From positions 1 through 64,000 of IMG/VR virus record IMGVR_UViG_3300035703_000059: DNA of 64,000 nt; one strand, given 5' to 3'. This document shows positions 4,954 through 54,787 of the stretch, piece by piece (the first letter of the stretch is position 1; the number at the start of each line of letters is the position of its first letter). Both the position numbers and the translations under genes were made by a program. Under the pieces are notes generated by a model, which did no database searches, was not told where the DNA came from, and was given only the letters and a program-made list of their open reading frames with translations. The DNA is from a virus.

Positions 4954-5712
4954 ATGGCAGTTACCGTCACCCGGCTCGATGGACAGAATGTCGGACTTCG
5001 TCTGCTGGGGCAGGTCAGCGTCAACGCGTTGTCGTTGAATCTGACGACCGGAGACGTGTCGAGTGCGTTCTTCAACGCCGAGGACTGCCGGATTCTCAAG
5101 CAGTTCGCGCTGTCGTTGTTCCAAATCGTCCCCGTCTCCGCGAGGTCGGCGGCATCGATTGGCCTTCTGGCGCGCCTGTGCGCTGTCTCGCCGGCTGACG
5201 CCTCGACGCTCACGCTGACGTCGTCGGTGTCACAGGGCGTGGCGACGCTCGTCGCGTCGGTCACGGCGTCGCCGGCCTCGCTTCTGCTCACCATCCCGTT
5301 CTCGCCGTCGGGCGGGCTTGTCCCCGGCATGGTGACGTCGAACGCGCAAGGCGGCGGGACCAGCGGGAACTCGTACATCGTGCTGCCCTACGAGGGTCCG
5401 CTCGACGTGGGAGATGCGGTGGTGCGGTCGCCGACGACGGGACGCGTGCGTCGGGCGGACCCGTGGGTAGAGACATTGATGCCGGCCATCGGAATCGCGG
5501 TGGATTGGGAGGGCGGAGACGTGAAGGTGCAGCTTGACGGGATCGTCGGTGGCCTCTACGCCGCGACGGCGCAGCCGCTCTTGTTCGTGGGAGAAAATGG
5601 CCGTCTGGTGCCTATCGCCGACGTCATTCCACGGGTGCAAATGATGGGGTACTGGCTGGACTCCAGCCGGTTCAAGTTGAACATCGACCCGCGAGCCTTC
5701 ATCCGAGCGTGA
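4954..5712 (+). CDS. Beta-rich structural candidate
   Basis: 252 aa, Ser/Thr/Val/Ala-rich, almost no Cys, no membrane span. The central part (GPLDVGDAVVRSPTTGRVRR, then WEGGDVKVQLDG) resembles small beta-barrel capsid-associated proteins, but I cannot name a family. A TATGAG sequence 8 bases before the ATG may be a weak leaderless -10, or GAGG may serve as the ribosome site. It ends a gene group; the next gene has its own promoter. Confidence 0.55.
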   Translation: MAVTVTRLDGQNVGLRLLGQVSVNALSLNLTTGDVSSAFFNAEDCRILKQFALSLFQIVPVSARSAASIGLLARLCAVSPADASTLTLTSSVSQGVATLVASVTASPASLLLTIPFSPSGGLVPGMVTSNAQGGGTSGNSYIVLPYEGPLDVGDAVVRSPTTGRVRRADPWVETLMPAIGIAVDWEGGDVKVQLDGIVGGLYAATAQPLLFVGENGRLVPIADVIPRVQMMGYWLDSSRFKLNIDPRAFIRA

Positions 5713-6325: not shown

Positions 6326-8377
6326 ATGGCTAACGTGAGGAAGTTTCTCTTTTTCGACCCGGCGACGGGTCAGTATCGGGAGCAGACCGCGACCGATACC
6401 ATTCAGATCGCGAACGGCGTTGACGCGCTGGACGCGGTGAACAAGAGCCAGCTTGACGCCGTTGCGGCGGCGGCGGATGCGGCTGTCGAGGCCGAGGAAG
6501 CCCGCGCTCTCGCAGCCGAGGCGGCTCTCCAGAGCGCCATCGATGGCGTGGCGGCCGACCTGTCGGACGAGGTTGATCGCGCGACTGCGGCCGAGCAGGC
6601 CATCGCGGCTGACCTTGCGACCGAGGTTTCGGATCGCGAGGCGGCGATCACGGCTCTCGACGCGGAACTGTCGGCCGACATTCTGGCCGAGCAGACCCGC
6701 GCGCAGGCGGCCGAGGCTTCGCTTCAGTCGGCGCTGACGCAGGAGATCGCGGACCGCGTCGCTGGCGACCTCACCGAGAAGAACCGGGCCGAGGCTGCCG
6801 AGGCTTCGCTGCTGTCGGCGATCAACACCGAGGTCAGCGACCGTATCGCTGCGGTGAGCGCCGAGGCTTCGGCTCGCGCTGCGGCCGACGCGACCGAGCT
6901 GGCTCGCGCGCAGGCGGCGGAAGCCGACCTTCAGTCGCAGATCACCGCCGAGGTTGCGGCGCGTGAGGCCGCGATCACGTCGCTCAACAGCACCCTGTCG
7001 GCGGCCATCACCGCCGAGGAGACGGCCCGCATCGCTGCGGACGGCGTGCTCCAGAGCAACATCGATGATGAGGAGTCGGCTCGTATCGCTGCCGACGCGA
7101 CCCTCACGTCGGACCTCGCGGCCGAGGTTGCGCGTGCGACCGCCGCCGAGAGCGTGCTGACCGCCGACCTCGCGTCGGAGGTTGCGGCTCGCGAGGCCGC
7201 CGTCTCTGCCGAGGCGCTGGCTCGCCAGAACGCCGATGACGGCCTTGCCGCCGACATCGCGGCCGAGGAAGTGCGTGCGCTGGCCGCCGAGGGCGTCCTT
7301 CAGTCGAACATCGATGCCGAGGAAGCGGCGCGTATCGCGGCCGTTTCGGCCGAAGAGGCCGCTCGCATCGCTGGCGATGCCGCGACCCTCGCGTCGGCGA
7401 ACGCCTACGCCGATAGCCTCGTCGAAGGCATCTCGTTCAAGTCGTCCGTGCGCGTCGCGCTGCCGACTTCGTTCGATATGGGCGGCAGCACGATCAATAT
7501 GCCCGCCGACTACGCCAGCGTGGCGTCGGCCCTCGGTACTGAGGCCGGCGACCGCATCCTGCTGATCCAGCCGGAAGGTTCGGCTGGCGCCATGAACGCC
7601 GGTATCTACGTCGTGAACAGCGGCAACACCGCGCTCGTTCGCGCGCCGGATATGGCGGTTGGCTCTGACGCGTCGGGCGCCTACGTCTACGTCGAAGAGG
7701 GCGTGGTCGGAAGCACCATCCCGCACGCCAACCCCGGAACGTCGTTCGTTTGCGCCAACGTCAAGGGTGGCGACATCGTTGGCACCGACCCGCTCGATTT
7801 CGCGGTGTTCCAGCGCGTCGAGAACCTGACCTTCTCCAACGGGGTTCAGAAGATCGGCCTCGACGTTTCGGCCAAGGTCAAGACGAACGGCGCCATCGGC
7901 GCGGGCAGCAACGGGCTTGAGCTGCTGTTCGACACCACCCTGCTGAAGATCGATGGCAGCGGCAACGTCACCATCAACGACCCGCTCGCCGGTGGCCCGC
8001 TGAACATCGCGGACAGCCTGCACGGCCACAGCCACACCAGCGCGGTGCGGCCGTCGACCGCTGCCAACGAGGCGCACTTCGCCAAGTTCAACGGCGACAG
8101 CGCGACGTGGGACTCCTCGTCCTGCATGGCGTTCGTGGAATCGAAGGACGGCAGCGGCACCGCCGTCATCGTGTTCAGCGGCAAGGGCGAGCACTCGTCG
8201 CTCTCCACCGCGCTGTCGGCCTTCTCGGTCGGCGACACGGTGTACGTCGGCGGCGTTGCGGGCGAGTTCTCGGACTTCGCCAGCGTGCCGAGCGGCAAGT
8301 GGGCCATCCCGGTCGGCAAGAAGATGGCGTCGAACGCCCTCCTCGTCGACATCGGAACGGCGCTGCTGAAGGCGTAA
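6326..8377 (+). CDS. Long coiled-coil stalk/fibre protein
   Basis: 683 aa with ribosome site AGGAGCAAGACG. Residues 1-45 resemble phage fibre N-termini (FFDPATGQY, then VDALDAVNKSQLDAV). Residues about 45-360 are an uninterrupted repetitive helix built from variants of RA-AAE--LQS-I--E---R-AA, as in trimeric stalks. The C-terminal 300 residues switch to Gly/Ser/Thr/Asn-rich beta sequence, presumably a receptor-binding head. The head contains a GHSHTS segment like those that bind metal in fibre tips. A terminator follows. Binding partner unknown. Confidence 0.75.
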   Translation: MANVRKFLFFDPATGQYREQTATDTIQIANGVDALDAVNKSQLDAVAAAADAAVEAEEARALAAEAALQSAIDGVAADLSDEVDRATAAEQAIAADLATEVSDREAAITALDAELSADILAEQTRAQAAEASLQSALTQEIADRVAGDLTEKNRAEAAEASLLSAINTEVSDRIAAVSAEASARAAADATELARAQAAEADLQSQITAEVAAREAAITSLNSTLSAAITAEETARIAADGVLQSNIDDEESARIAADATLTSDLAAEVARATAAESVLTADLASEVAAREAAVSAEALARQNADDGLAADIAAEEVRALAAEGVLQSNIDAEEAARIAAVSAEEAARIAGDAATLASANAYADSLVEGISFKSSVRVALPTSFDMGGSTINMPADYASVASALGTEAGDRILLIQPEGSAGAMNAGIYVVNSGNTALVRAPDMAVGSDASGAYVYVEEGVVGSTIPHANPGTSFVCANVKGGDIVGTDPLDFAVFQRVENLTFSNGVQKIGLDVSAKVKTNGAIGAGSNGLELLFDTTLLKIDGSGNVTINDPLAGGPLNIADSLHGHSHTSAVRPSTAANEAHFAKFNGDSATWDSSSCMAFVESKDGSGTAVIVFSGKGEHSSLSTALSAFSVGDTVYVGGVAGEFSDFASVPSGKWAIPVGKKMASNALLVDIGTALLKA

Positions 8378-17186: not shown

Positions 17187-17588
17187 ATGGCGTCGTGTCC
17201 GGTCATCCGCAAAGAGTTTCAGCGCCTCACGAACATGAGCGCCGCTGAGATTCGGTCGTGGGCGAAGGATGACCGGGCGAAGTGCTTTTCGCAGAAGGCA
17301 ACGCGGCGACGGCTCACGCAGCCCTCAATCTATCGAGGGCATCGTGTGCCGTCGCTCGCGAACCTTCGCAAGCGCGCCTTCACGGGGGCGTGGTCGGAAG
17401 AGGACTGCTGGTACGGGAACATCGTCAACGGGTTCAACAAGCGGTTCTTGAAGATGAAGCAGAAGCACGGCTGTACGGACGGGATCGTCGTCGCGCTGCG
17501 GAATTGGGGCCACCAGCCGAAGTCGTGCGCGGTCCCGACGAAGAAATGCAAGCGCGAGCATGAGCCGCGCGTATCGAAGAAGGGATGA
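17187..17588 (+). CDS. Basic protein, unknown
   Basis: 133 aa, start in GGAGCGCATCGATGG. Strongly basic, with Cys in SCPVI, AKCFSQ, EDCWYG, HGCTDG, KSCAV and KKCKRE. The helical N-terminal half includes FQRLTNMSAAEIRSWAKDDR. No membrane span. Could bind nucleic acid; no family named. Confidence 0.55.
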   Translation: MASCPVIRKEFQRLTNMSAAEIRSWAKDDRAKCFSQKATRRRLTQPSIYRGHRVPSLANLRKRAFTGAWSEEDCWYGNIVNGFNKRFLKMKQKHGCTDGIVVALRNWGHQPKSCAVPTKKCKREHEPRVSKKG

Positions 17589-18921: not shown

Positions 18922-18996
18922 TGGCTGGCGGGGTAGGAGTCGAACCTACGGCCACGCGATTAACAGTCGCGCGCTCTGCCTCTGAGCTACCCGCCA
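18922..18996 (-). tRNA. tRNA-Asn (anticodon GTT), CCA encoded
   Basis: The minus strand folds as a complete cloverleaf. The acceptor stem is TGGCGGG/CCCGCCA, the D arm GCTC-AGAGGCA-GAGC, the anticodon stem CGCGA-CTGTTAA-TCGCG with GTT, and the T arm GTAGG-TTCGACT-CCTAC. The discriminator is G and 3' CCA is in the DNA. It is antisense to all surrounding genes and sits between a terminator and the leaderless gene at 19056. It may serve translation of the element or be a leftover of host DNA. Confidence 0.93.
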
Positions 18997-36352: not shown

Positions 36353-36399
36353 ACGAAAAAAGGGGGGCGACGGCGAAAGATGCCGTCGCCCCCCGTTTC
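36353..36399. terminator. Bidirectional terminator between the converging gene blocks
   Basis: A perfect 13-pair stem (GGGGGGCGACGGC with GCCGTCGCCCCCC, 7-base loop) is flanked by AAACGAAAAAA on the left and CGTTTCC on the right. It can stop transcripts from both sides and lies precisely where the + and - blocks meet. Confidence 0.85.
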
Positions 36400-38438: not shown

Positions 38439-38644
38439 CGATTCTCTCCTCGCGTCTTGCCGACGCGCTCGTACAGGGGTTTGCCGTTCGCGTCGACGTC
38501 GTCCGTGATGACGTAGACGCCGAACGGCGTCTGAATCTCCTCCGGCGGGTTCGCCGGCAGTCCGTGTGCCTCAATCCACCGGAGCCAATCGTTCGGCGTC
38601 CAAAGAGCGGTGCAGACCGGAGGAACCGGGAATCGAAGGTTCAC
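38435..38644 (-). CDS. Small protein, unknown (GTG start)
   Basis: 69 aa. GTG start in the GTGA overlap with the preceding gene, ribosome site AAGGAGACGCC. Sequence includes WTPNDWLRWIEAHG, FGVYVITDDVDANGKPLYER. No family recognised. Confidence 0.5.
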   Translation of the reverse strand: MNLRFPVPPVCTALWTPNDWLRWIEAHGLPANPPEEIQTPFGVYVITDDVDANGKPLYERVGKTRGENR

Positions 38645-38925
38645 GGCGTCTCCTTGAGCGCCTCGCGCGCGTCGATGGTGTCCTGCACCCGATTGACGAT
38701 GGCGGTCAGTTCGTCGGCGACCTCGGCGAGACGGAACATCCTCTGTCGATGCTCGTCGAGCGCCGCCTGCCACGCGACGACGCCCTGCGGGTAGTAGTCG
38801 CGATGGTTCGGTGCGTTCATGGCAATCGCGCGGATCGCGTCCCGCACGGCGACGAGCGCATCCTCGTACCCGTCGCGCAGCGCCTCTGCCGACGTGCCGT
38901 TCAAGTGAATGGTCGGGTGAATCAT
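38641..38925 (-). CDS. Small helical protein, unknown
   Basis: 94 aa after GAAGGAGGACTGAG. Mainly helix (SAEALRDGYEDALVAVRDAI and RLAEVADELTAIVNRVQ). Ends overlapping the next GTG start. Soluble. Unknown role. Confidence 0.55.
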   Translation of the reverse strand: MIHPTIHLNGTSAEALRDGYEDALVAVRDAIRAIAMNAPNHRDYYPQGVVAWQAALDEHRQRMFRLAEVADELTAIVNRVQDTIDAREALKETP

Positions 38926-39435: not shown

Positions 39436-39614
39436 CAGTTCCACACTCCCGACGCCGCCGCCTCGCGAACGGCATCCCACATCCGCGCTTCCAGCAGCGC
39501 GTGAAGCCTCAGTTGTTCCAGCGTCTCCGCAGAGAGGTGGTCCGCGTTCGCGCATCGCTCTCCGCAGAACGTCCCCGTCGTCGTCGGCTTGCTGCACACC
39601 AAGCACTCAAACAT
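39435..39614 (-). CDS. Tiny zinc-finger-like protein
   Basis: 59 aa. It starts with a CxxC...CxxxC arrangement (FECLVCSKPTTTGTFCGERC), a probable zinc knuckle, followed by helix. The start is in GAGGAGGCTTCGATG behind a small hairpin. First gene of this cotranslated group. Confidence 0.6.
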   Translation of the reverse strand: MFECLVCSKPTTTGTFCGERCANADHLSAETLEQLRLHALLEARMWDAVREAAASGVWN

Positions 39615-43222: not shown

Positions 43223-43473
43223 CGCGCTGCCTCCTCTTCTTCGGCGCACTCCTCTTCGAACCCATCCGCGCTCAGAGCGAGGAGCGCATCGATGTCGATG
43301 CCCTCGCGCTTGCACAGGTGGCGCAGGTCGCAGAGAAGGTCGCAGGTGAAAGACTCGATCTCTTGGGTCCGGTCCGCCCCGACCAGCACATCGATGCTGT
43401 CGTTGTCGGCGTAGGCAATCACCGCACCCAGCGCGCGCTCCGCGCGGTCGTCGTTCGTAGGTGAACCCGACAT
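43219..43473 (-). CDS. Small acidic protein, unknown
   Basis: 84 aa, start in TGATG at the previous gene's stop, GGAGGCGG upstream. Helical, with a Cys-containing centre (SFTCDLLCDLRHLCKREG) and a Glu-rich end (EEECAEEEEAAR). Confidence 0.55.
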   Translation of the reverse strand: MSGSPTNDDRAERALGAVIAYADNDSIDVLVGADRTQEIESFTCDLLCDLRHLCKREGIDIDALLALSADGFEEECAEEEEAAR

Positions 43474-43637
43474 CACTCCGCCTCCTCTTCCAGCGTGAGG
43501 CACGACGGCGGATAGCGCACCGTCGCCCCGTAGCTTCCAGCCAGCCGAACCGTCACCGTCTCCGGCGTCACATCGATGACCCGGCATCGCCGATTCAGCG
43601 GGTCAACCACCACCATTCCGACAACGAACGCTCCCAT
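43473..43637 (-). CDS. Tiny beta-rich protein
   Basis: 54 aa, below usual size cut-offs. Start GGAGGCTTCGATGG. Strand-rich (AFVVGMVVVDPLNRRCRVID, VTVRLAGSYGATVRY), compatible with one small barrel. Its stop overlaps the next ATG (TGATG), which supports that it is translated. Confidence 0.55.
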   Translation of the reverse strand: MGAFVVGMVVVDPLNRRCRVIDVTPETVTVRLAGSYGATVRYPPSCLTLEEEAE

Positions 43638-43742
43638 CGAAGCCTCCACCCGCGCACAACGCGCGACCGCTGGACCCTCGCGAGAAGGCCCAGCGGTCGA
43701 GCGGGGGCCGCGCGCAACCGCGCCGCCCCTCGCGTCGATCCC
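43638..43742 (-). promoter_or_regulatory. Structured intergenic cassette 1
   Basis: On the minus strand: hairpin C (GGGCGGC-GCGGTTGC-GCGCGGCCCCC type), hairpin A (CGACCGCTGG 43699-43690 with CCAGCGGTCG 43673-43664), small hairpin B (CGCGC-GTTGT-GCGCG), then GGAGG and the start at 43637. The same order A, B, C with different stem sequences occurs at 45144, 46573 and (A, C) 47963. Confidence 0.6.
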
Positions 43743-44375
43743 TCACTCCGCCGACGACCACGATTCGACGGCCATCGTTTCCTCGCGGCTGCGCTGCTCC
43801 GCACGCTCCGCCCGCTCCTGCTCGTAGGTGGCAACCAGCCGGCACGCGTCCGGCGCGTAGCACCATCGATTGGTCGGGCAGCGAAGGTTCTGCGGCAGGT
43901 CCGACACCCACGCGTGCTGCTTCCGATTCCCGTAGCCGCTGCCCGTCCAGTAGACCGGCGAGAAGGGGACGCCCGCCGCCTTCAGCGCGCCCAGCCAGCC
44001 CAGCAGGTTCGTGTCGTACTGCTCGATGTCGAGCGCCTTCAGCACGTCGAGGTGCCGCTTGACGGCATCGATGGTCGCTCGCGTCTGCTCGCGGAACGTC
44101 GCGGCGTAGGGCGCCGAGTACGGCGCACCGCCGACATCCCAGAACGGACCGTGCGCCGTCGAGGCGCGCAGGTCGAGAACCTCCGACACATACTTTCCGT
44201 TGTCGTTACGGTCGAGGCGATGACGCTGGAAGGAAACGTAGATGCTCGACTCGTAGCGGTCCGACTCGTGAGGGAACTTGATCGTCACGGTGTCGTAGTC
44301 GTTCGTCGCGTCGGCGTTGATGATGATCTCCGCCGAATGAAACCCCAGCTTCGCCAACTTGTTCTTCGTAGCCAT
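43743..44375 (-). CDS. Soluble protein, unknown
   Basis: 210 aa, start TAGGAGGCATCGATGG. Beta-rich start (SAEIIINADATNDYDTVTIK) then helical with a Trp/Tyr/Cys-rich middle (RCPTNRWCYAPDACR). Unknown. The opening shares a short strand pattern with the 41341 product. Confidence 0.6.
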   Translation of the reverse strand: MATKNKLAKLGFHSAEIIINADATNDYDTVTIKFPHESDRYESSIYVSFQRHRLDRNDNGKYVSEVLDLRASTAHGPFWDVGGAPYSAPYAATFREQTRATIDAVKRHLDVLKALDIEQYDTNLLGWLGALKAAGVPFSPVYWTGSGYGNRKQHAWVSDLPQNLRCPTNRWCYAPDACRLVATYEQERAERAEQRSREETMAVESWSSAE

Positions 44376-44384
44376 CGATGCCTC

Positions 44385-44645
44385 CTAGTTGATTCCGCAA
44401 TACGCGGCGATGTGACCTTCGGGAATACGAACGAGAACGCGCCAGCCGGCACGAACGTCTTTCGCCTTCGATGGCGGAAGGTGCGCGAGGAAGTCGCCGA
44501 TGTTGTCCTCGCTCTGAAGGTAGAGGAGCGCTTCGCCGGAGAGCGGCGGGGCGTCCATCAGCTTGCGGAGCCGCCGTCCCGCCTTGTCCGACTTCGGCTC
44601 TATCTCGACGTGACCGAACCTGTTTTGCTCGACGATGACCAGCAT
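44385..44645 (-). CDS. Small protein, unknown
   Basis: 86 aa, start TAGGAGGCATCGATG. Mixed fold, soluble (VEIEPKSDKAGRRLRKLMDA). Unknown. Confidence 0.55.
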   Translation of the reverse strand: MLVIVEQNRFGHVEIEPKSDKAGRRLRKLMDAPPLSGEALLYLQSEDNIGDFLAHLPPSKAKDVRAGWRVLVRIPEGHIAAYCGIN

Positions 44646-44654
44646 CGATGCCTC

Positions 44655-45143
44655 CTAGCGTGACCGAATGATGTGGTGGAAGATGTGCGCGACAAGCTGC
44701 GCCTTCGACTCGACGGAAAGCGCATCGAATCCGTCGCGGACCGACTCGTAGGTGGGCGGCGGCGGAGCCGCCGGACCGATGCCGTTCGCCCGAAGAATGA
44801 CGGAGAGCGCTTCGGGATCGCGCGTCTGCATCGCCTTGATGAGATCCGTCCAGTTGAGGCGGAGAGAGGCAGCGACCGCCTCTGCCGTGACCGGAGCATC
44901 GATGGGGACGCCCGCGTGATTCAGACACGAACGCAACGCCAGCGGGTCCGTGTCCTGCATCTCTTTGAGAAGGTCGGTCCAATCGTAGGACGCCACCACG
45001 TCGGCCACGTCATACACGTTATCGATGCCAACGCTCGACGCCTCGACTATCTCCCGAATGTCGCTCCCGTCGAAATCGTACAGGTCGCTCGCGTCAATCT
45101 CGACTTCCACTTCGACCGTCTTCGTAAAAAGGGGGCGGCCCAT
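44655..45143 (-). CDS. Protein with two W-(T)DL..M..DP repeats
   Basis: 162 aa, start GGAGAGAATCGATGG behind a hairpin leader. Two internal repeats of about 30 residues: DWTDLLKEMQDTDPLALRSC and NWTDLIKAMQTRDPEALSVI. The 60-residue product at 47780 carries one more copy (SWVELFRRMWATDPAGFVRA). The repeat is helical and may be a protein-protein interaction motif. Not recognised. Confidence 0.6.
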   Translation of the reverse strand: MGRPLFTKTVEVEVEIDASDLYDFDGSDIREIVEASSVGIDNVYDVADVVASYDWTDLLKEMQDTDPLALRSCLNHAGVPIDAPVTAEAVAASLRLNWTDLIKAMQTRDPEALSVILRANGIGPAAPPPPTYESVRDGFDALSVESKAQLVAHIFHHIIRSR

Positions 45144-45261
45144 CGATTCTCTCCTCGCCGCGTGATGCGGCTTCCGTGAAACGTCCAACCGTTTCCGTCA
45201 GACCCCAACCATCGATGGCCGGAGGCTGACGGAAACGGCGCGCGGATGCGCGCCGGTCCCC
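45144..45261 (-). promoter_or_regulatory. Structured intergenic cassette 3
   Basis: On the minus strand: hairpin C (CGGCGCGC-ATCC-GCGCGCCG), hairpin A with 13 perfect pairs (CCGTTTCCGTCAG 45238-45226 and CTGACGGAAACGG 45201-45189), hairpin B (GCCGC-ATCAC-GCGGC), then GAGGAGAG and the start at 45143. The A loop contains an ATCGAT. Confidence 0.65.
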
Positions 45262-46572
45262 TTACGCCGCGAGAGCGAGTTCCACCTTGCGAACGAGATT
45301 CTTGTCGGTGAGGAGCGACCCGGCTTCACGCTCCACCGCGTCGGCATCGAAGGCGCCGCGCCACCGGAAGCCTTCGTGAACGGAACGCGTCACCGCGTTC
45401 ACCACGTCGGCGCGCGTGAACCCCGGCTCCTCCATCCAAGCGGATAGAAGGCCAGCCGCCACCTCGGTTTCCTTTCCGGGGAGCGAGAGGATCTTCGCCT
45501 TCGATAGCCCTTCGAAGAACCGATTGGCCGGCATCCCGTCGGTCAGAAGGATCTCGGACCGTGCCTGTCCCCAATCGTGCCGGAACGCGCCGAACTTCAC
45601 TTCGGCTTCGGCGAACGCCGACGCCAGCGCGACGTGAATCTCGGTCGGGGCGCCGACGTGCTTCAGCGAGAACAACGCGTGCTTCAGTTGGCCGATGACG
45701 ATGAGGTTCAAGCATCGATTCCGCCACGCCACAAGCTCGCCCGTGATGGCGCCCTCGCGAACGTCGTTCGCGCGGAGCCTCAGACCGATCTTGAAAACGT
45801 CACCGGCCGCCAGATCCACCACTTGATCCGGCATCGAGAGGAAGTCGAGCGCCAGCCGCTCGCCGTCGTATCGAACGTCGCCCTTCCACGTCTGCATCAG
45901 ATCGGCCGACGACGAGAGGAGCGACGCTAGAACCATGTCGGCATCGAAGGCCGTGTATTTCGTAGAGGCGATCCGGTACACCTCCGGCCGTTCCAGCGTC
46001 CGCCCATCGATACCCACCTCGCGATAGGCCGCCACAAGCTGCTTCGACTCGCGAGGCAGGTAGTCGTTCAACATCGCCGCACGGACCGCGAGCGAAGCGT
46101 GCGGGGCGTGCGCCGCCGCGAACCGGGGCGCGTCGGGACAAAGGCCGAAGGCGTGTTCCCATGCCGTCGGCGTCAGATCCACGTCCATCCCGTTCAACGT
46201 CACCGCGCCCGTTTTGGCATCGAAGCCGACGAGGCTCAGATCCATCTCGGTTTCGGCGCGATTCTCCCGCTGAATCGCCTTCAGCCGGTCATAAGCCGCC
46301 GTCGCGCCGTCGGGCATCGAGTCGATCTTTCGCCGCTCGATAGTGAAGTTACGGACGCCGGTTTCGTTCACGCGCGACCCGGCCGGATAGATTGGGTCCG
46401 TCCGCGCCGCCGCCTCCTCGCCGAAAGTCTCGACAAGCGCGCGACGCTGGCGAGCGATACGCGCCGCCGCCACCGTCGAAACCGTGCCAGCCTCGCCCGT
46501 CATGGTAACAGGCGACTTCGCCTTGCCCTTCGCGCCGCCCACGATCTCGCCGTTCGTTTTGACGATCTGCAT
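45262..46572 (-). CDS. DUF932-like phage/plasmid protein
   Basis: 436 aa, start GGGTGAATCGATGC. The central part looks like DUF932: YDGERLALDFLSMPDQVVDL, VFKIGLRLRANDVREG and AWRNRCLNLIVIG, which matches the conserved hydrophobic/Gly/Cys-Asn signature of that family. DUF932 proteins are widespread in phages and plasmids, often near replication genes; molecular role unclear. It lies between a ParB-like gene and structured cassettes. Confidence 0.65.
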   Translation of the reverse strand: MQIVKTNGEIVGGAKGKAKSPVTMTGEAGTVSTVAAARIARQRRALVETFGEEAAARTDPIYPAGSRVNETGVRNFTIERRKIDSMPDGATAAYDRLKAIQRENRAETEMDLSLVGFDAKTGAVTLNGMDVDLTPTAWEHAFGLCPDAPRFAAAHAPHASLAVRAAMLNDYLPRESKQLVAAYREVGIDGRTLERPEVYRIASTKYTAFDADMVLASLLSSSADLMQTWKGDVRYDGERLALDFLSMPDQVVDLAAGDVFKIGLRLRANDVREGAITGELVAWRNRCLNLIVIGQLKHALFSLKHVGAPTEIHVALASAFAEAEVKFGAFRHDWGQARSEILLTDGMPANRFFEGLSKAKILSLPGKETEVAAGLLSAWMEEPGFTRADVVNAVTRSVHEGFRWRGAFDADAVEREAGSLLTDKNLVRKVELALAA

Positions 46573-46702
46573 CGATTCACCCCTTGCGCGTCAAGCGCGC
46601 AAAACACGGACCCTCGCCCGTTGAAAGCGTCCCGGCCGACCGAGGCGCTTTCGACGGACGGCGGGGAGCGCGCGCAACGCGCCCCCGCTCGTCCTTCGAT
46701 TC
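46573..46702 (-). promoter_or_regulatory. Structured intergenic cassette 2
   Basis: On the minus strand: hairpin C (GGGGGCGCG-TTG-CGCGCGCTCCCC), hairpin A (CCGTCGAAAGCG paired with CGCTTTCAACGG, one mismatch), hairpin B (TTGCGCG-CTTGA-CGCGCAA), then GGGG and the start at 46572. It shares GGACCCTCGC and the C element with the 43638 cassette. Confidence 0.6.
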
Positions 46703-47746
46703 CTACCGGCGCATCGAACCAAGCGCCTTCGCCAGCGCGGCGAACTTGCCAGCCTGCGCGGGAGTCGGCGCCCCCCCGTCGATGACGAACGAGAGCGTCA
46801 TCCACGCGCCTTGCAACGCCGCCTTCTCGACATCCGACAAGCCCGCCGTGATCACGGCCGCTTGCACGGCCATGACAACCGCGCCGATCTCGTCCATCTT
46901 CGGACGGCCGGAACGCGGACCCGTATCGGCCGGAACATCGGCCGAGTCGCCCTTCGATGCCGCCATGCGCTTCGTTTTGAGCGACGGGGCGATCTCGACT
47001 CCCTTCGCTTCGGCAATCGCAGCGTACACGTCACGCGTCGCGATCTTCGCCGCGCCCCCGTCCGTCGTCTTACGCTTCCCGCTTTCGTCCGTCGCCAGCG
47101 CAACGGCCGCCTTCTGACGTGCAGCCGTGAGGATCGCGTTTTGATCTTCGTGTGGACGCGTAGAAAGCTCCGCGCCCGAAGTCGTCGACAATTCGCCAGC
47201 GTTGACGGCCGCTTTGATCTCGTCGCTCGCCTTGTCGAGAATGTTGAGGAGATCCTTCAGCCCGTCCACCTTGCGGCCCATAGCGCGGGCCACGTCCGCC
47301 TTCGATTTCCCGGCCGCCAGCGCCGCCTTCGCCGCACGGGCCTGTGCCATGATCGAAGGCGCCATGCGAACGGCGTTCAATTCGTGCGAGAGAAGGACGC
47401 TATCGATGTCCGACTTCGGCGCCGCCTTCACCTTGAACGGGATCGTCTTTCGTCCGGCTTCGATAGCGTGCAACGTCCGGCGCCGGCCGTCCTCCACTTC
47501 AAGCCGGCCCTCTTCGTTCACGAACACGATCACGTCGAACATGACGCCGTGCTTCTTGATCGAAGCGAGCGTCACCGGGTCAATCGGATAGGCCGAAAGG
47601 TCCGCCCGTTCGTCGTAACGCGGATGTGCCGCGTCCGTCACGATGAACAATTCCTTCGGATCGATCTCGCCACGGAACCCAACCGGGAAACGCTCGCTCA
47701 TCGAAGCCTCCACCGAAACAGTCTCGTTCTTCTTCGCAGCACCCAT
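46703..47746 (-). CDS. ParB/sulfiredoxin-like DNA-binding protein
   Basis: 347 aa, start GAGGAGGCTTCGATGG. Residues about 30-110 are the ParB N-terminal domain, with the EDGRRRTLHAIEAG motif (normally nucleotide binding) and VEDG. An HTH follows (SKADVARAMGRKVDGLKDLL). The C-terminal third is helical. No ParA ATPase is present in the window. ParB-like proteins in phages range from partition factors to regulators and nickases; which applies here is open. Confidence 0.8.
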   Translation of the reverse strand: MGAAKKNETVSVEASMSERFPVGFRGEIDPKELFIVTDAAHPRYDERADLSAYPIDPVTLASIKKHGVMFDVIVFVNEEGRLEVEDGRRRTLHAIEAGRKTIPFKVKAAPKSDIDSVLLSHELNAVRMAPSIMAQARAAKAALAAGKSKADVARAMGRKVDGLKDLLNILDKASDEIKAAVNAGELSTTSGAELSTRPHEDQNAILTAARQKAAVALATDESGKRKTTDGGAAKIATRDVYAAIAEAKGVEIAPSLKTKRMAASKGDSADVPADTGPRSGRPKMDEIGAVVMAVQAAVITAGLSDVEKAALQGAWMTLSFVIDGGAPTPAQAGKFAALAKALGSMRR

Positions 47747-47779
47747 CGAAGCCTCCTCGCCGCGAATCGCGGCTTCCTG
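47747..47779 (-). promoter_or_regulatory. Hairpin ribosome-site leader of the ParB-like gene
   Basis: The minus strand reads ACAGGAAGC, then GCCGCG-ATT-CGCGGC and GAGGAGGCTTCGATG. It sits between the 47780 gene and the ParB-like gene. Confidence 0.55.
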
Positions 47780-47962
47780 TTAGATCGAGAAATCCAGATC
47801 GGACCCGCCACCGAAAGCCGAGAAGTCGACTCCCGCTTGAGCGCAAGCCCGCACGAACCCGGCCGGGTCCGTCGCCCACATCCTACGAAAAAGCTCTACC
47901 CACGAAAGATTCGGGTCGGCCGCGATGTCCGCCTCCCCGAAAGAATCCGATACGTTCGCCAT
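47780..47962 (-). CDS. Small protein with one W-EL..M..DP repeat
   Basis: 60 aa, start after GGGGTGAATT. One copy of the helical motif repeated in the 44655 product (SWVELFRRMWATDPAGFVRA). First gene after a long leader and terminator-like hairpin, so its expression may be controlled by attenuation. Confidence 0.55.
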   Translation of the reverse strand: MANVSDSFGEADIAADPNLSWVELFRRMWATDPAGFVRACAQAGVDFSAFGGGSDLDFSI

Positions 47963-48058
47963 AATTCACCCCGTATGAAAAACCGTCCTATCGGCGGCCC
48001 GTCCGAAAACCGGCCGCCGATAGGACGGGGCGCGCGTCACCACGCGCGCCACGTCCCT
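47963..48058 (-). promoter_or_regulatory. Structured cassette 4 with attenuator-like hairpin
   Basis: A perfect 17-pair inverted repeat, CCGTCCTATCGGCGGCC (47983-47999) and GGCCGCCGATAGGACGG (48012-48028), 12-base loop. On the minus strand it is followed by TTTTTC, the form of an intrinsic terminator, 20 bases before the start at 47962. A C-type hairpin (GGCGCGCG-type arms, 48030-48050) precedes it. Confidence 0.7.
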
Positions 48059-48720
48059 TGATTTGCTTTCCCCGTTCACTCTACCGATAACAGAGGCGAC
48101 GCGCCGTGAGGCTTCCCGATTGGGGCCGCTTGTTCCGATAGTGCCGACGTTACAGAGGCGGATTTCTAGTAGAGGGATCCGCTTGTCGCGACAACGTGCC
48201 TTCGATACTTGACGCTCGATTGACCGACGGGAGGCGACCGACAAGCGCGCCGGGAAAATTCACCGGGCGCCGTTCGCGCTTCTCGCCACCTATCGAGCGC
48301 TTCGCATAGGGAAAGGCTAAAGGGCTTCTATTCGGACCCGCTTCTTCCGCGCGGGTCGCACGATCCGATTCGGACCGTTTTCGTTTTCAGCGCGCCCCCC
48401 TTAGTAGCCTTCGGGGGGGCTTCCTTCTCTATCCCGTTCCGATTCGACACCCCGCGAAGAGGGGGGTGCGCTCGGACCCGATCTAGAGCCTTCGTGACGG
48501 GCAACGGTCCCGTCTTTCGCGCGTCGAATACGCGTCTACTGTATGCAATCGAAGGCTTCGATTGGGTCGCGCGGCTGGCCCGTCCTAAGACGGCGCTTCG
48601 CGCTTGCCTTTCGCGAATCGTTCGACTCCGTTTCCGGTCCGATAGCCTTTCGGCCGATTCGTGCCTTCGATTGTCCGGGGGGCCGGACTAGCAAGCCCCC
48701 CCTTCGTCTAACCTTTCGTC
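48059..48720. other. Gene-poor leader region
   Basis: No convincing coding region on either strand; short frames here lack ribosome sites and protein-like composition. It has several hairpins (GCCCCCC/GGGGGGC near 48390; CACCCC/GGGGTG near 48450; CAATCGAAG/CTTCGATTG at 48546-48564) and a perfect palindrome TTGTCGCGACAA near 48184. It would be the first 660 bases transcribed from the promoters at 48725-48928. Confidence 0.6.
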
Positions 48721-48724
48721 CCTC

Positions 48725-48754
48725 AGTATAGTGCGAGAGGGGTCAAGGTGTCAA
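48725..48754 (-). promoter_or_regulatory. Tandem promoter P1
   Basis: Minus strand: TTGACA (48754-48749), 18-base spacer, TATACT (48730-48725). Near-consensus sigma70. Spacer contains CCCCTCTCGCA, shared with P2. Confidence 0.75.
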
Positions 48755-48811
48755 GCCCTTTTCGTCTTACCGTCGGGGGCCGTCGTTCAAGCCCCCCAAT
48801 CTTTCCCGCTT

Positions 48812-48840
48812 AGTATATGCGAGAGGGGGCGCGGCGTCAA
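48812..48840 (-). promoter_or_regulatory. Tandem promoter P2
   Basis: Minus strand: TTGACG (48840-48835), 17-base spacer, TATACT (48817-48812). GGGGCTTGAC and the spacer sequence CCCTCTCGCA repeat those of P1. Confidence 0.75.
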
Positions 48841-49150: not shown

Positions 49151-49180
49151 GAAAAACCCCGCGAGCTTTCGCTCGCGGGG
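49151..49180 (-). terminator. Rho-independent terminator of the 49.2-58.7 kb unit
   Basis: Minus strand: CCCCGCGAGC-GAAA-GCTCGCGGGG followed by TTTTTCGTTTC. Ten perfect pairs with a GAAA tetraloop. It ends transcription of the HTH/ATPase group before the gene-poor region. Confidence 0.9.
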
Positions 49181-51837: not shown

Positions 51838-52136
51838 CAGTCGTCTCCCCGGTTGATCAACGTCACCGCGTCCTCGGCCCCCGACTCCAACTCCGCGATG
51901 CGCTCGGACAATTGCGCCACAATCGCGCGGTACGTCTCAATCTGGTGTTGCACCGGGTCGGGGCAGTCGTCGGTGTATCCCGGCCAATTCACCGCCGAGA
52001 ACTGGTCCGCGCCCCACAGGTAGAGGAAATACTCCCCGAACTCCATCGACTCACACAGCGCGGCCACGATCCGCCCGATGTAGTTCGTCTTCTCCTCATG
52101 CGTCATTCCGTCCGTCACTTCTTTGTCCAGCAGCAT
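51837..52136 (-). CDS. Small acidic protein, unknown
   Basis: 99 aa, start overlapping the polymerase stop. Helical, acidic, with Trp/Tyr-rich centre (YFLYLWGADQFSAVNWPGY). Co-translated with the polymerase gene; could be an accessory. Unknown. Confidence 0.55.
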   Translation of the reverse strand: MLLDKEVTDGMTHEEKTNYIGRIVAALCESMEFGEYFLYLWGADQFSAVNWPGYTDDCPDPVQHQIETYRAIVAQLSERIAELESGAEDAVTLINRGDD

Positions 52137-54787
52137 CAGACCTCACTCCATCGAAGCCCAATCTTGGGCTTCGCCGCAAAGGACACGTCCGGCAAACCCG
52201 GCACGGTCCGGTTCATCGCTTCCTTGATCATTCGCGCGACCGTGTTCGCATCGCACTCGCACCCCGGCGGGCAGAATCCGAACTCGCGCTCCTTCTCGAT
52301 CACCTTGCCGTCCGCATCCAGCGGCCGGTACTCGTCGTGCGGACACGGCACCTCAAACGTCAACGCGTCGTGGCATTGGTTGACGAGGCCCGTCCCCGGC
52401 CCCCACAACTCGCACTTGAGCGGACCTTCGACGAGGTCGAACGTCGCCATGTGGATGATGTGCGCGCCCGCGCTCTGGACGCCGAAATTGATGATCTCGT
52501 TGAACTTCTCGCCGTCGAGGAAGTCACGCCGACGGCCGAGAACCGGGTCGACGATGTACCCCACCGTCCGATAGGTGTCCAAGCACTCGTCCCACCACTT
52601 CTGAAGCTGCGGAATCTCCCGCAGCCACCGCTTCCGAAGCGTGGCGACTTGATTCAGCGTCAAGTCGGGGTACATCAGCGTGCCGTCCGCGTTCTCCGCG
52701 CTCGTCACCAGCCCATGCACCGTCTCGTCGCCGGAGCCATAGAACGACGCGTAAGCGATGCTCTTCGCGATTTTTCGCAGCTTGTCCCATTGGTCCGACT
52801 TCGGCACCAGCCCGTCGAACTGCTTTCCGAACATCATCGATGCCGTCTGCGCGTGCGGATCGCCGCCAGCCGAAAACGTCTCCAAGTAGCGCGGGATTTG
52901 GGCCACCGACGCGATGATCCGAAGCTCCAACTGGTCCGCGTCCGCGCCCACCAGCACCCGCCCCGGCTCCGCTTTCACCAGCGCCCGCAGGTGCTTCGGG
53001 AAGTTCTGGGCGTTCGGATTCGATGACGACAGCCGGCCCGACGTCGTCCCGTGCGCGTTGTAGTCCGGGTGAATCCGCCCGTCCGGCAGAATGAGGCCGC
53101 GAGCCGCCTCATCCTGCTCGTCCTCGCTGCGAAACTGCACCCCATCGACCGGCTGGCCGTAGGGGACGAGCCGCGTGACGTAGGTGCCGTACTCCTTCGC
53201 CACCTTGCGATACCGTCGCAAGGAATCGATGAACTTCACGATGTTCTCGCGGTCCCGGTTCTGCGTCCGCAGCAGGCGAAGCGACTCGTCCGACGTCGAG
53301 GGGTCGCCCAGCTTCGTCATCTCGGCCGGCGTCAGCCCCCACTTGTCGAAAAGCAGGTCGCGAATCTGATAGGTGCTGTTCGGATTGAGGTTCGGATTCT
53401 CGGCGTTGACGCGCGTCTCCGCGAGGTAGTCGGCGATCTTGACCCGAAGCTCGTCCGACACCTTGTTCCGCAGCGGCCGGTCCACCCACATCCCCGTCCG
53501 ATGCAGGTCCGCGCAAATCGCCTGCACCCGATGGTCGAATCCCACGACGTTTTCCTGCCGCCGCAGCTTCACCGCGTCCGCCAGCTTCGGCATCACGCGC
53601 GCCGTCACCACGCAGTCGACGGCACAGTAGGTCGTCAACTCCTCGTCGGTCTGCGCCACCTCCGCCGTGTGCGCGGCCTTCCATGACGTGACGTCGGTGT
53701 AGACGCTGCCGATGTACCCCAGCTTGTGCGGCAGTTCGCTCTCGACGCTGCGGTGCAAAAGGATGGTGTCGAGGAGCGGCTTCGGCGTGACGCCGAAATG
53801 CTGCTCGATGACGATGCGGTCGAAGTACCCCGCGTTGTGGCCGACCTTCAGCTTCGTGTCATCGATGAAGAAGTCCCGCAGGATGCCCCGCAGCCGCAGC
53901 AGGTCCGACGCGGTGTACCACGGCGGATCGACGAGCGAACCGTTCGGGCCTTCGATGCTCTTGAGCGAGACGACGATGGACGCGTTCTCGTTCGCGATGC
54001 CCACGCACTTGAGTTCCGCGATGAGCGGGTCGTCGAACGTCGTCTCGACGTCGTAGATGTACGGGATGTCCGTGCGCGCGAGGAACGCCTCGACCTCGTC
54101 GGGCGACGGCGTCAAATCGATGTACGGGTGCTGCCAGCCCAGCCCACCCCGGAACCATCGGAACGCGCGTGACAGGTCGCTGCGGAACGCCCGCGTCCAG
54201 CGCCGCGCCCGCAGCACGAACGCGGGGTGCAGCGTCGGCAGCACCTTCACGTCCTTCGGCTTGTCGCCGCCGGTGATGAAGTTCCCGATGACGTCGAACC
54301 GGCCCTCGACCGGGCCACCGCGAATCTCGGTGACGCTCGCCGCCTGCCCCGTCACCGCTTGGAAGGCGATCTTCCCCAGCGTGATGATGTTCTTCGTCTG
54401 GCCGATGTCGTGCATCAGCCTCGGTCGGCAGCAATCGATGGGGTGCGGCAGGGGGTCTTCTTTCGCCGCGATCCGCTTCTTGTTGTCCCGCGACAGCTTC
54501 ACCAGCACGCGGTCCAGTTCGTTCTCTGGTGGCCGGCACGCGAGGGCCGTCGTGATCGAGACGGCGCCGCGCGGGATGCCCACCGCCTTCAGCGACTCGT
54601 TGAACTCGATGCCTGCCGAGTCGACGAGCGGGCGCTGCTCCTCGACGTCCTTCTCACGCGGCGACTCCGTCACGACCACCGCGACAGAACCGGGCCGAAT
54701 CTCGGCCGGGACCGGGACACCCGCGCGCGCCTTTCGCAGAACGCACTCGTCGCATCGCGCGCCGTCGTCTCGCGGGTCGTAGATCAT
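52136..54787 (-). CDS. Fusion of uracil-DNA glycosylase and family A DNA polymerase with 3'-5' exonuclease
   Basis: 883 aa. Residues 1-215: family 4/5-type UDG with four Cys for a 4Fe-4S cluster (CDECVLRKA, LACRPPEN, PIDCCRPRL) and VVVTESPREKDVEEQRPLVD. Residues about 240-420: 3'-5' exonuclease with YIYDVETTFDDP, GHNAGYFDR and TYCAVDCVV. Residues about 470-883: PolA with motif A ADADQLELRIIAS, motif B DKLRKIAKSIAYASFYG and motif C QCHDALTFEVP. In motif C the usual HDE Glu is Ala. UDG-PolA fusions are known in phages. This should be the replicative polymerase; the fusion may remove or tolerate uracil. Confidence 0.9.
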   Translation of the reverse strand: MIYDPRDDGARCDECVLRKARAGVPVPAEIRPGSVAVVVTESPREKDVEEQRPLVDSAGIEFNESLKAVGIPRGAVSITTALACRPPENELDRVLVKLSRDNKKRIAAKEDPLPHPIDCCRPRLMHDIGQTKNIITLGKIAFQAVTGQAASVTEIRGGPVEGRFDVIGNFITGGDKPKDVKVLPTLHPAFVLRARRWTRAFRSDLSRAFRWFRGGLGWQHPYIDLTPSPDEVEAFLARTDIPYIYDVETTFDDPLIAELKCVGIANENASIVVSLKSIEGPNGSLVDPPWYTASDLLRLRGILRDFFIDDTKLKVGHNAGYFDRIVIEQHFGVTPKPLLDTILLHRSVESELPHKLGYIGSVYTDVTSWKAAHTAEVAQTDEELTTYCAVDCVVTARVMPKLADAVKLRRQENVVGFDHRVQAICADLHRTGMWVDRPLRNKVSDELRVKIADYLAETRVNAENPNLNPNSTYQIRDLLFDKWGLTPAEMTKLGDPSTSDESLRLLRTQNRDRENIVKFIDSLRRYRKVAKEYGTYVTRLVPYGQPVDGVQFRSEDEQDEAARGLILPDGRIHPDYNAHGTTSGRLSSSNPNAQNFPKHLRALVKAEPGRVLVGADADQLELRIIASVAQIPRYLETFSAGGDPHAQTASMMFGKQFDGLVPKSDQWDKLRKIAKSIAYASFYGSGDETVHGLVTSAENADGTLMYPDLTLNQVATLRKRWLREIPQLQKWWDECLDTYRTVGYIVDPVLGRRRDFLDGEKFNEIINFGVQSAGAHIIHMATFDLVEGPLKCELWGPGTGLVNQCHDALTFEVPCPHDEYRPLDADGKVIEKEREFGFCPPGCECDANTVARMIKEAMNRTVPGLPDVSFAAKPKIGLRWSEV

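Follow-up and report, generated by a model that had tools for sequence, protein, structure and literature searches.

Hairpin cassettes between the genes of a phage operon as possible marks of mRNA cutting and termination

We found four structured RNA cassettes in the intergenic gaps of a leftward gene run in an unclassified phage, and give a probability of roughly one half to the reading that they are gene-boundary RNA elements of a polycistronic operon, with the cassette in gap 4 ending or attenuating transcription and those in gaps 1-3 processing or protecting the mRNA. The hairpins may mark the places where the long messenger RNA of this phage is cut or ended.

The cassettes lie in a stretch of 64,000 nucleotides (hereafter the window) with a GC content of about 66%, which covers positions 1 to 64,000 of the 75.4-kb IMG/VR record IMGVR_UViG_3300035703_000059. 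Genes were called with a simple ORF caller written for this analysis, on which the gene starts given here depend. The calls form one minus-strand run that extends leftward from near 49.5 kb to 36.4 kb, in which most neighboring genes either overlap or lie less than 70 nt apart; from about 38.1 to 48 kb, the only gaps in the leftward operon longer than 100 nt are the four that hold cassettes. Most of the large proteins encoded in the window have no phage-family match. A single protein encoded at 52136-54787 on the minus strand combines a uracil-DNA glycosylase domain with a family A DNA polymerase, and a tRNA-Asn gene (18922-18996, minus strand) lies on the strand opposite to its neighbours. 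The window is also rich in the palindrome CATCGATG, with 46 copies against about 2.5 expected under an order-2 model (92 against 5.1 when both strands are counted), predominantly in a single codon frame and at start codons (sites include 44373, 44643 and 45210); ATCG precedes the start codon of 22 of 122 genes, and the relatives L009-L018 have zero copies of the palindrome. The features of the cassette region are as follows, in the order of leftward transcription.

48725..48840, minus strand: two tandem, near-identical sigma70-like promoters (48840-48812, TTGACG/TATACT; 48754-48725, TTGACA/TATACT)
48051..48722, minus strand: non-coding leader of about 670 nt, from the tandem promoters to the gap 4 hairpins, with no gene called
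47963-48075, minus strand: gap 4 cassette; z -5.65
48029..48050, minus strand: C hairpin of gap 4, a GC hairpin
47983..48028, minus strand: A hairpin of gap 4, 17+3 bp, then TTTTTC; -41.5 kcal/mol, tail TTTTTCATACGG
46703..47746, minus strand: ParB-like gene between gaps 3 and 4; phrog_1033, E 6e-20
46573..46702, minus strand: gap 3 cassette, 5' of the DUF932-like gene; z -4.25
46661..46688, minus strand: C hairpin of gap 3, related to that of gap 1
46618..46657, minus strand: A hairpin of gap 3 (16 bp, two mismatches), lacking a U tract; -23.1 kcal/mol
46584..46602, minus strand: B hairpin of gap 3, a small stem
45262..46572, minus strand: 436-aa DUF932-like gene between gaps 2 and 3, a relative of a gene in contig L067
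45144..45261, minus strand: gap 2 cassette, 3' of the DUF932-like gene; z -3.81
45237..45254, minus strand: C hairpin of gap 2, a GC hairpin
45188..45239, minus strand: A hairpin of gap 2 (14+9 bp, one mismatch), lacking a U tract; -39.3 kcal/mol; outermost pairs overlap C
45157..45171, minus strand: B hairpin of gap 2, GCCGC-atcac-GCGGC, adjoining GAGGAG
43743-44375, minus strand: 210-aa gene on the upstream side of gap 1
43638..43742, minus strand: gap 1 cassette, between the 210-aa and 54-aa genes; z -4.38
43704..43729, minus strand: C hairpin of gap 1, GGGGCGGCGCGGTTGCGCGCGGCCCC, related to that of gap 3
43664..43699, minus strand: A hairpin of gap 1, 16 bp with a UCGC loop, no U tract; -31.8 kcal/mol, tail CGCGTTGTGCGC
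43651..43663, minus strand: B hairpin of gap 1, a small stem ahead of the Shine-Dalgarno site
43473-43637, minus strand: 54-aa gene on the downstream side of gap 1

The comparison of these spacers with shuffled ones, which the original prediction had proposed, came out in its favor: in each of the four gaps, none of 200 dinucleotide shuffles reached the folding energy of the real sequence. When all minus-strand 60-nt windows of the 64 kb were taken in 10-nt steps and ordered by folding energy, the four cassettes held ranks 2, 3, 4, and 5. Together, the shuffle z-scores and these ranks show that the fold signal is real and goes well past base composition. The strongest fold in the ranking (17301-17360, -43.9 kcal/mol) falls inside a called plus-strand gene at 17187-17588. 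Other gaps of similar size have mostly unremarkable folds, and several of the remaining strong folds are U-tailed terminators.

Each gap has the predicted arrangement on the minus strand, with hairpin C, hairpin A, usually a small hairpin B, the Shine-Dalgarno site, and then ATG; gap 4 lacks B. C is a GC-rich hairpin shortly 3' of the upstream gene's stop codon, A is a long hairpin of 16-23 pairs closed by a four-base loop, and B, found in gaps 1-3, is a small stem close to the Shine-Dalgarno site. We rejected B as a part of the cassette, since stems adjoining the Shine-Dalgarno site are also present where C and A are absent, as ahead of the genes with starts at 47746, 41637, and 39614, making B a separate element. 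Such stems precede 11 minus-strand genes, a count not beyond that of shuffled sequences (mean 5.1, maximum 14). Small GC stems adjoin GAGGAG just before the starts at 39614, 41637, 45143, and 47746, and at 7465 in L002, and several of these are preceded by AGGAAGC or GGAAGC.

How far the cassettes form one family depends on the hairpin considered. In pairwise alignments of C with its 5' flank, gaps 1 and 3 were related (p<0.002 against 500 shuffles) and gaps 3 and 4 weakly so (p=0.046), these p-values being uncorrected: with correction for the six window pairs the first becomes about 0.012 and the second would not survive. The C of gap 2 showed no kinship to those of the other gaps by the same alignments. 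Gaps 1 and 3 also have GGACCCTCGC in common (43672-43681 and 46608-46617), as had been noted, and its structural place differs, within the A hairpin in gap 1 and downstream of it in gap 3. A covariance model built from the four copies of C and run over 222 kb of this phage and its relatives recovered the same four loci, one of them also on the opposite strand (E 0.011), but no further ones, all other places scoring E 0.17 or worse.

The claim that the stems covary gained no support. The A stems cannot be aligned and hence offer no homologous pairs, so they give no covariation; RNAalifold on the four gaps returned a covariation term of only -0.62 kcal/mol and did not recover the A stems. Nor is the cassette module kept in a close relative. 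Searching with part of the DNA polymerase gave five contigs at about 70% identity in that part and five at 43-46%, and of the five closest only one, L009, has DNA across the whole cassette region. L009 keeps the polymerase, an SMC-like gene, and an integrase, but neither the ParB-like nor the 436-aa gene has a match in it, and the module is thus missing there. What stands of the proposed repeated control or processing element is a repeated structured intergenic RNA with folds beyond those of shuffles and some kinship in C; it does not stand as one functional type, as the gap 4 cassette looks like an intrinsic terminator and those of gaps 1-3 do not.

For gap 4, termination or attenuation is the step with the best support. 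Since its A hairpin, with a 17-bp GC stem, is followed by TTTTTC, it is probably an intrinsic terminator or attenuator below the leader of about 670 nt, resembling known leader attenuators in having a strong GC hairpin and U tract after a long leader. The leader itself, taken without its terminal cassette, has modest structure (z -2.3 against shuffles) and no Rfam match; it may be a discrete leader or a non-coding RNA that stops at the gap 4 terminator. In gaps 1-3, in contrast, no run of T adjoins the A stem (tails CGCGTTGTGCGC, TGGACGTTTCAC, and GCGAGGGTCCGT), which sets these hairpins apart from intrinsic terminators.

The gap 4 terminator, textbook in form, leads to the alternative that survives best, in which all four cassettes act on transcription as terminators or pause sites of differing strength, those of gaps 1-3 serving as terminators that are weak or lack a U tract and as protectors of 3' ends, which sets an expression gradient along the operon. 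The A stems are as strong as those of the phage's U-tailed terminators (for example, 36362-36394, 49157-49180, and 2473-2504). The tails in gaps 1-3, however, have only 2-4 T in 12 nt, compared with 4-9 T in the phage's own terminator-like hairpins, and genes in the same direction follow directly, with no promoter found between gaps 1-3 and those genes. We regard this account as possible but doubtful. An antiterminator role for C, in competition with A, was rejected as a shared feature because pairing of the 5' flank of C with the 5' arm of A was significant only in gap 3 and borderline in gap 4 (p = 0.38, 0.42, 0.007, and 0.046 for gaps 1-4, against shuffled flanks). Hiding of the Shine-Dalgarno site was likewise rejected as a rule, which argues against a translational switch: the unpaired probability is 0.22, 0.80, 0.61, and 0.74 for the genes after gaps 1-4 against an all-gene mean of 0.46, with gap 1 alone falling below the mean.

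It is improbable that the cassettes are a neutral by-product, that is, GC-rich leftover spacer without present function, perhaps from decayed former ribozymes. C is indeed a low-complexity GCGCG sequence and the module is not conserved in L009, but perfect or near-perfect stems of 16-23 bp are expected to decay without selection, and all four cassettes have extreme folds. We give somewhat less credit still to long inverted repeats acting at the DNA level as binding sites of a phage protein such as the ParB-like one encoded between gaps 3 and 4. The repeats are perfect or near-perfect, yet a sequence-specific binding protein would not tolerate A arms unrelated in sequence, and each element follows the direction of the genes and sits after a stop codon and ahead of a ribosome site. 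Searches of viral and genome contigs, and of the records of the contigs identified as relatives, brought up no relative of the ParB-like protein; among GenBank phages, it has 35 partial matches below 60% identity.

The reading of gaps 1-3 as sites of mRNA processing draws instead on what surrounds the DUF932-like gene elsewhere. The only relative found for its 436-aa product is a protein encoded in another viral contig, the 52.9-kb L067 (31% identity over 417 aa, E 1e-35), with none in GenBank phages or plasmids; the DUF932 assignment comes from the L067 homolog only, at an E-value of 0.00056, below Pfam's cut-off. In L067, both gaps beside the homologous gene hold Twister-P5 (RF02684) ribozymes on the coding strand (4965-5018, 51.1 bits; 6723-6776, 49.4 bits), both above the gathering score of 37.6 bits and the only two in the contig. 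The likeness between the two loci rests on this one gene at about 31% identity, as the neighboring genes of L067 do not match those of the window and the window's polymerase has no match in the contig. A weaker Twister-P5 match, which at 27.8 bits (E 0.0026) falls short of the gathering score of 37.6, lies at 15208-15270 in L009, where the corresponding operon has its first gap, and keeps GAGGG, UAA, and CGGUCCCAA. This gap comes after a relative of the window gene at 38641-38925, a junction not homologous to that of any cassette.

These twisters make the processing role suggested by the original prediction plausible, and they are also an argument for supposing that the cassettes are themselves self-cleaving ribozymes, of an unrecognized class or as extremely divergent twisters. 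Twister-P5 elements and the cassettes are alike in their place, in the gaps around homologous genes and on the genes' strand; Twister-P5 is likewise a compact intergenic element, with a short outer stem enclosing an inner hairpin and then a second hairpin. Different ribozyme classes, moreover, share loci near phage genes (PMC10085705). The cassettes, however, lack the twister core. No Rfam family matches them; ribozyme models gave no match in the region up to E 5 or in the window up to E 3, and Twister-P5 none in the whole 75-kb record up to E 10. The twister core segment CCCAAGCC (YCCAAGCC) is absent from the whole window, the twister segment UAAUGC (TAATGC) and the hammerhead core CUGANGA ... 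GAAA from the four gaps, and the four cassettes have no unpaired core in common, the flanks of A being wholly different. Self-cleavage of the cassettes at large is accordingly very improbable, and slightly more so is the narrower version in which the C and A hairpins of gaps 1-3 take the place of the L067 twisters as self-cleaving RNAs of an undescribed class or as a twister reduced beyond recognition.

Returning to the cassettes as gene-boundary elements, we infer that gaps 1-3 hold mRNA processing or stabilizing hairpins, positional analogs of ribozymes. In favor of this, all four operon gaps longer than 100 nt are cassettes, the other junctions being short or overlapping, and Twister-P5 flanks both sides of the only relative of the 436-aa gene, with a twister-like element in L009. 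Because ribozymes hold that place in L067, cutting or end protection of the mRNA is favored in gaps 1-3; because the cassettes have no common catalytic core, it would most likely be the work of a host or phage nuclease rather than of self-cleavage. Transcription from the tandem promoters, some 700 nt upstream, would be ended or attenuated by the U-tailed hairpin of gap 4, so that the operon downstream would depend on read-through. The C and A hairpins of gaps 1-3 would then divide the read-through transcript into separate messages, by way of cutting by a double-strand-specific nuclease such as RNase III, by blocking exonucleases at RNA ends, or both, and the ParB-like, DUF932-like, and downstream genes would be expressed and decay separately.

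A close precedent for cutting of this kind is the early mRNA of phage T7, which has intercistronic hairpins for RNase III. The cassettes likewise place a stable double-stranded stem between genes of what, judging from gene order, is a single operon transcript, but their stems are shorter, T7 lacks a paired GC hairpin C, and cleavage in the window is only predicted. A stems of 16-23 bp, some of them mismatched, are short for efficient RNase III cleavage, and this counts against processing. Phage-related hammerhead ribozymes, which are active and flank genes in polycistronic RNAs (PMC3088659), offer a further parallel, with several structured copies around the genes of one phage-type operon; the window gaps differ in lacking the hammerhead core, and no self-cleavage is known for the cassettes.

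Both twister and hammerhead ribozymes are enriched in the neighborhood of the same phage-related genes, for a reason still unexplained (PMC10085705). If unrelated hairpins stand in for twisters around the same gene, this would suggest that they share a job, the division of an operon mRNA at fixed gene boundaries. Were that so, different RNA solutions could serve it, and the window and L067 would provide a concrete pair of loci.
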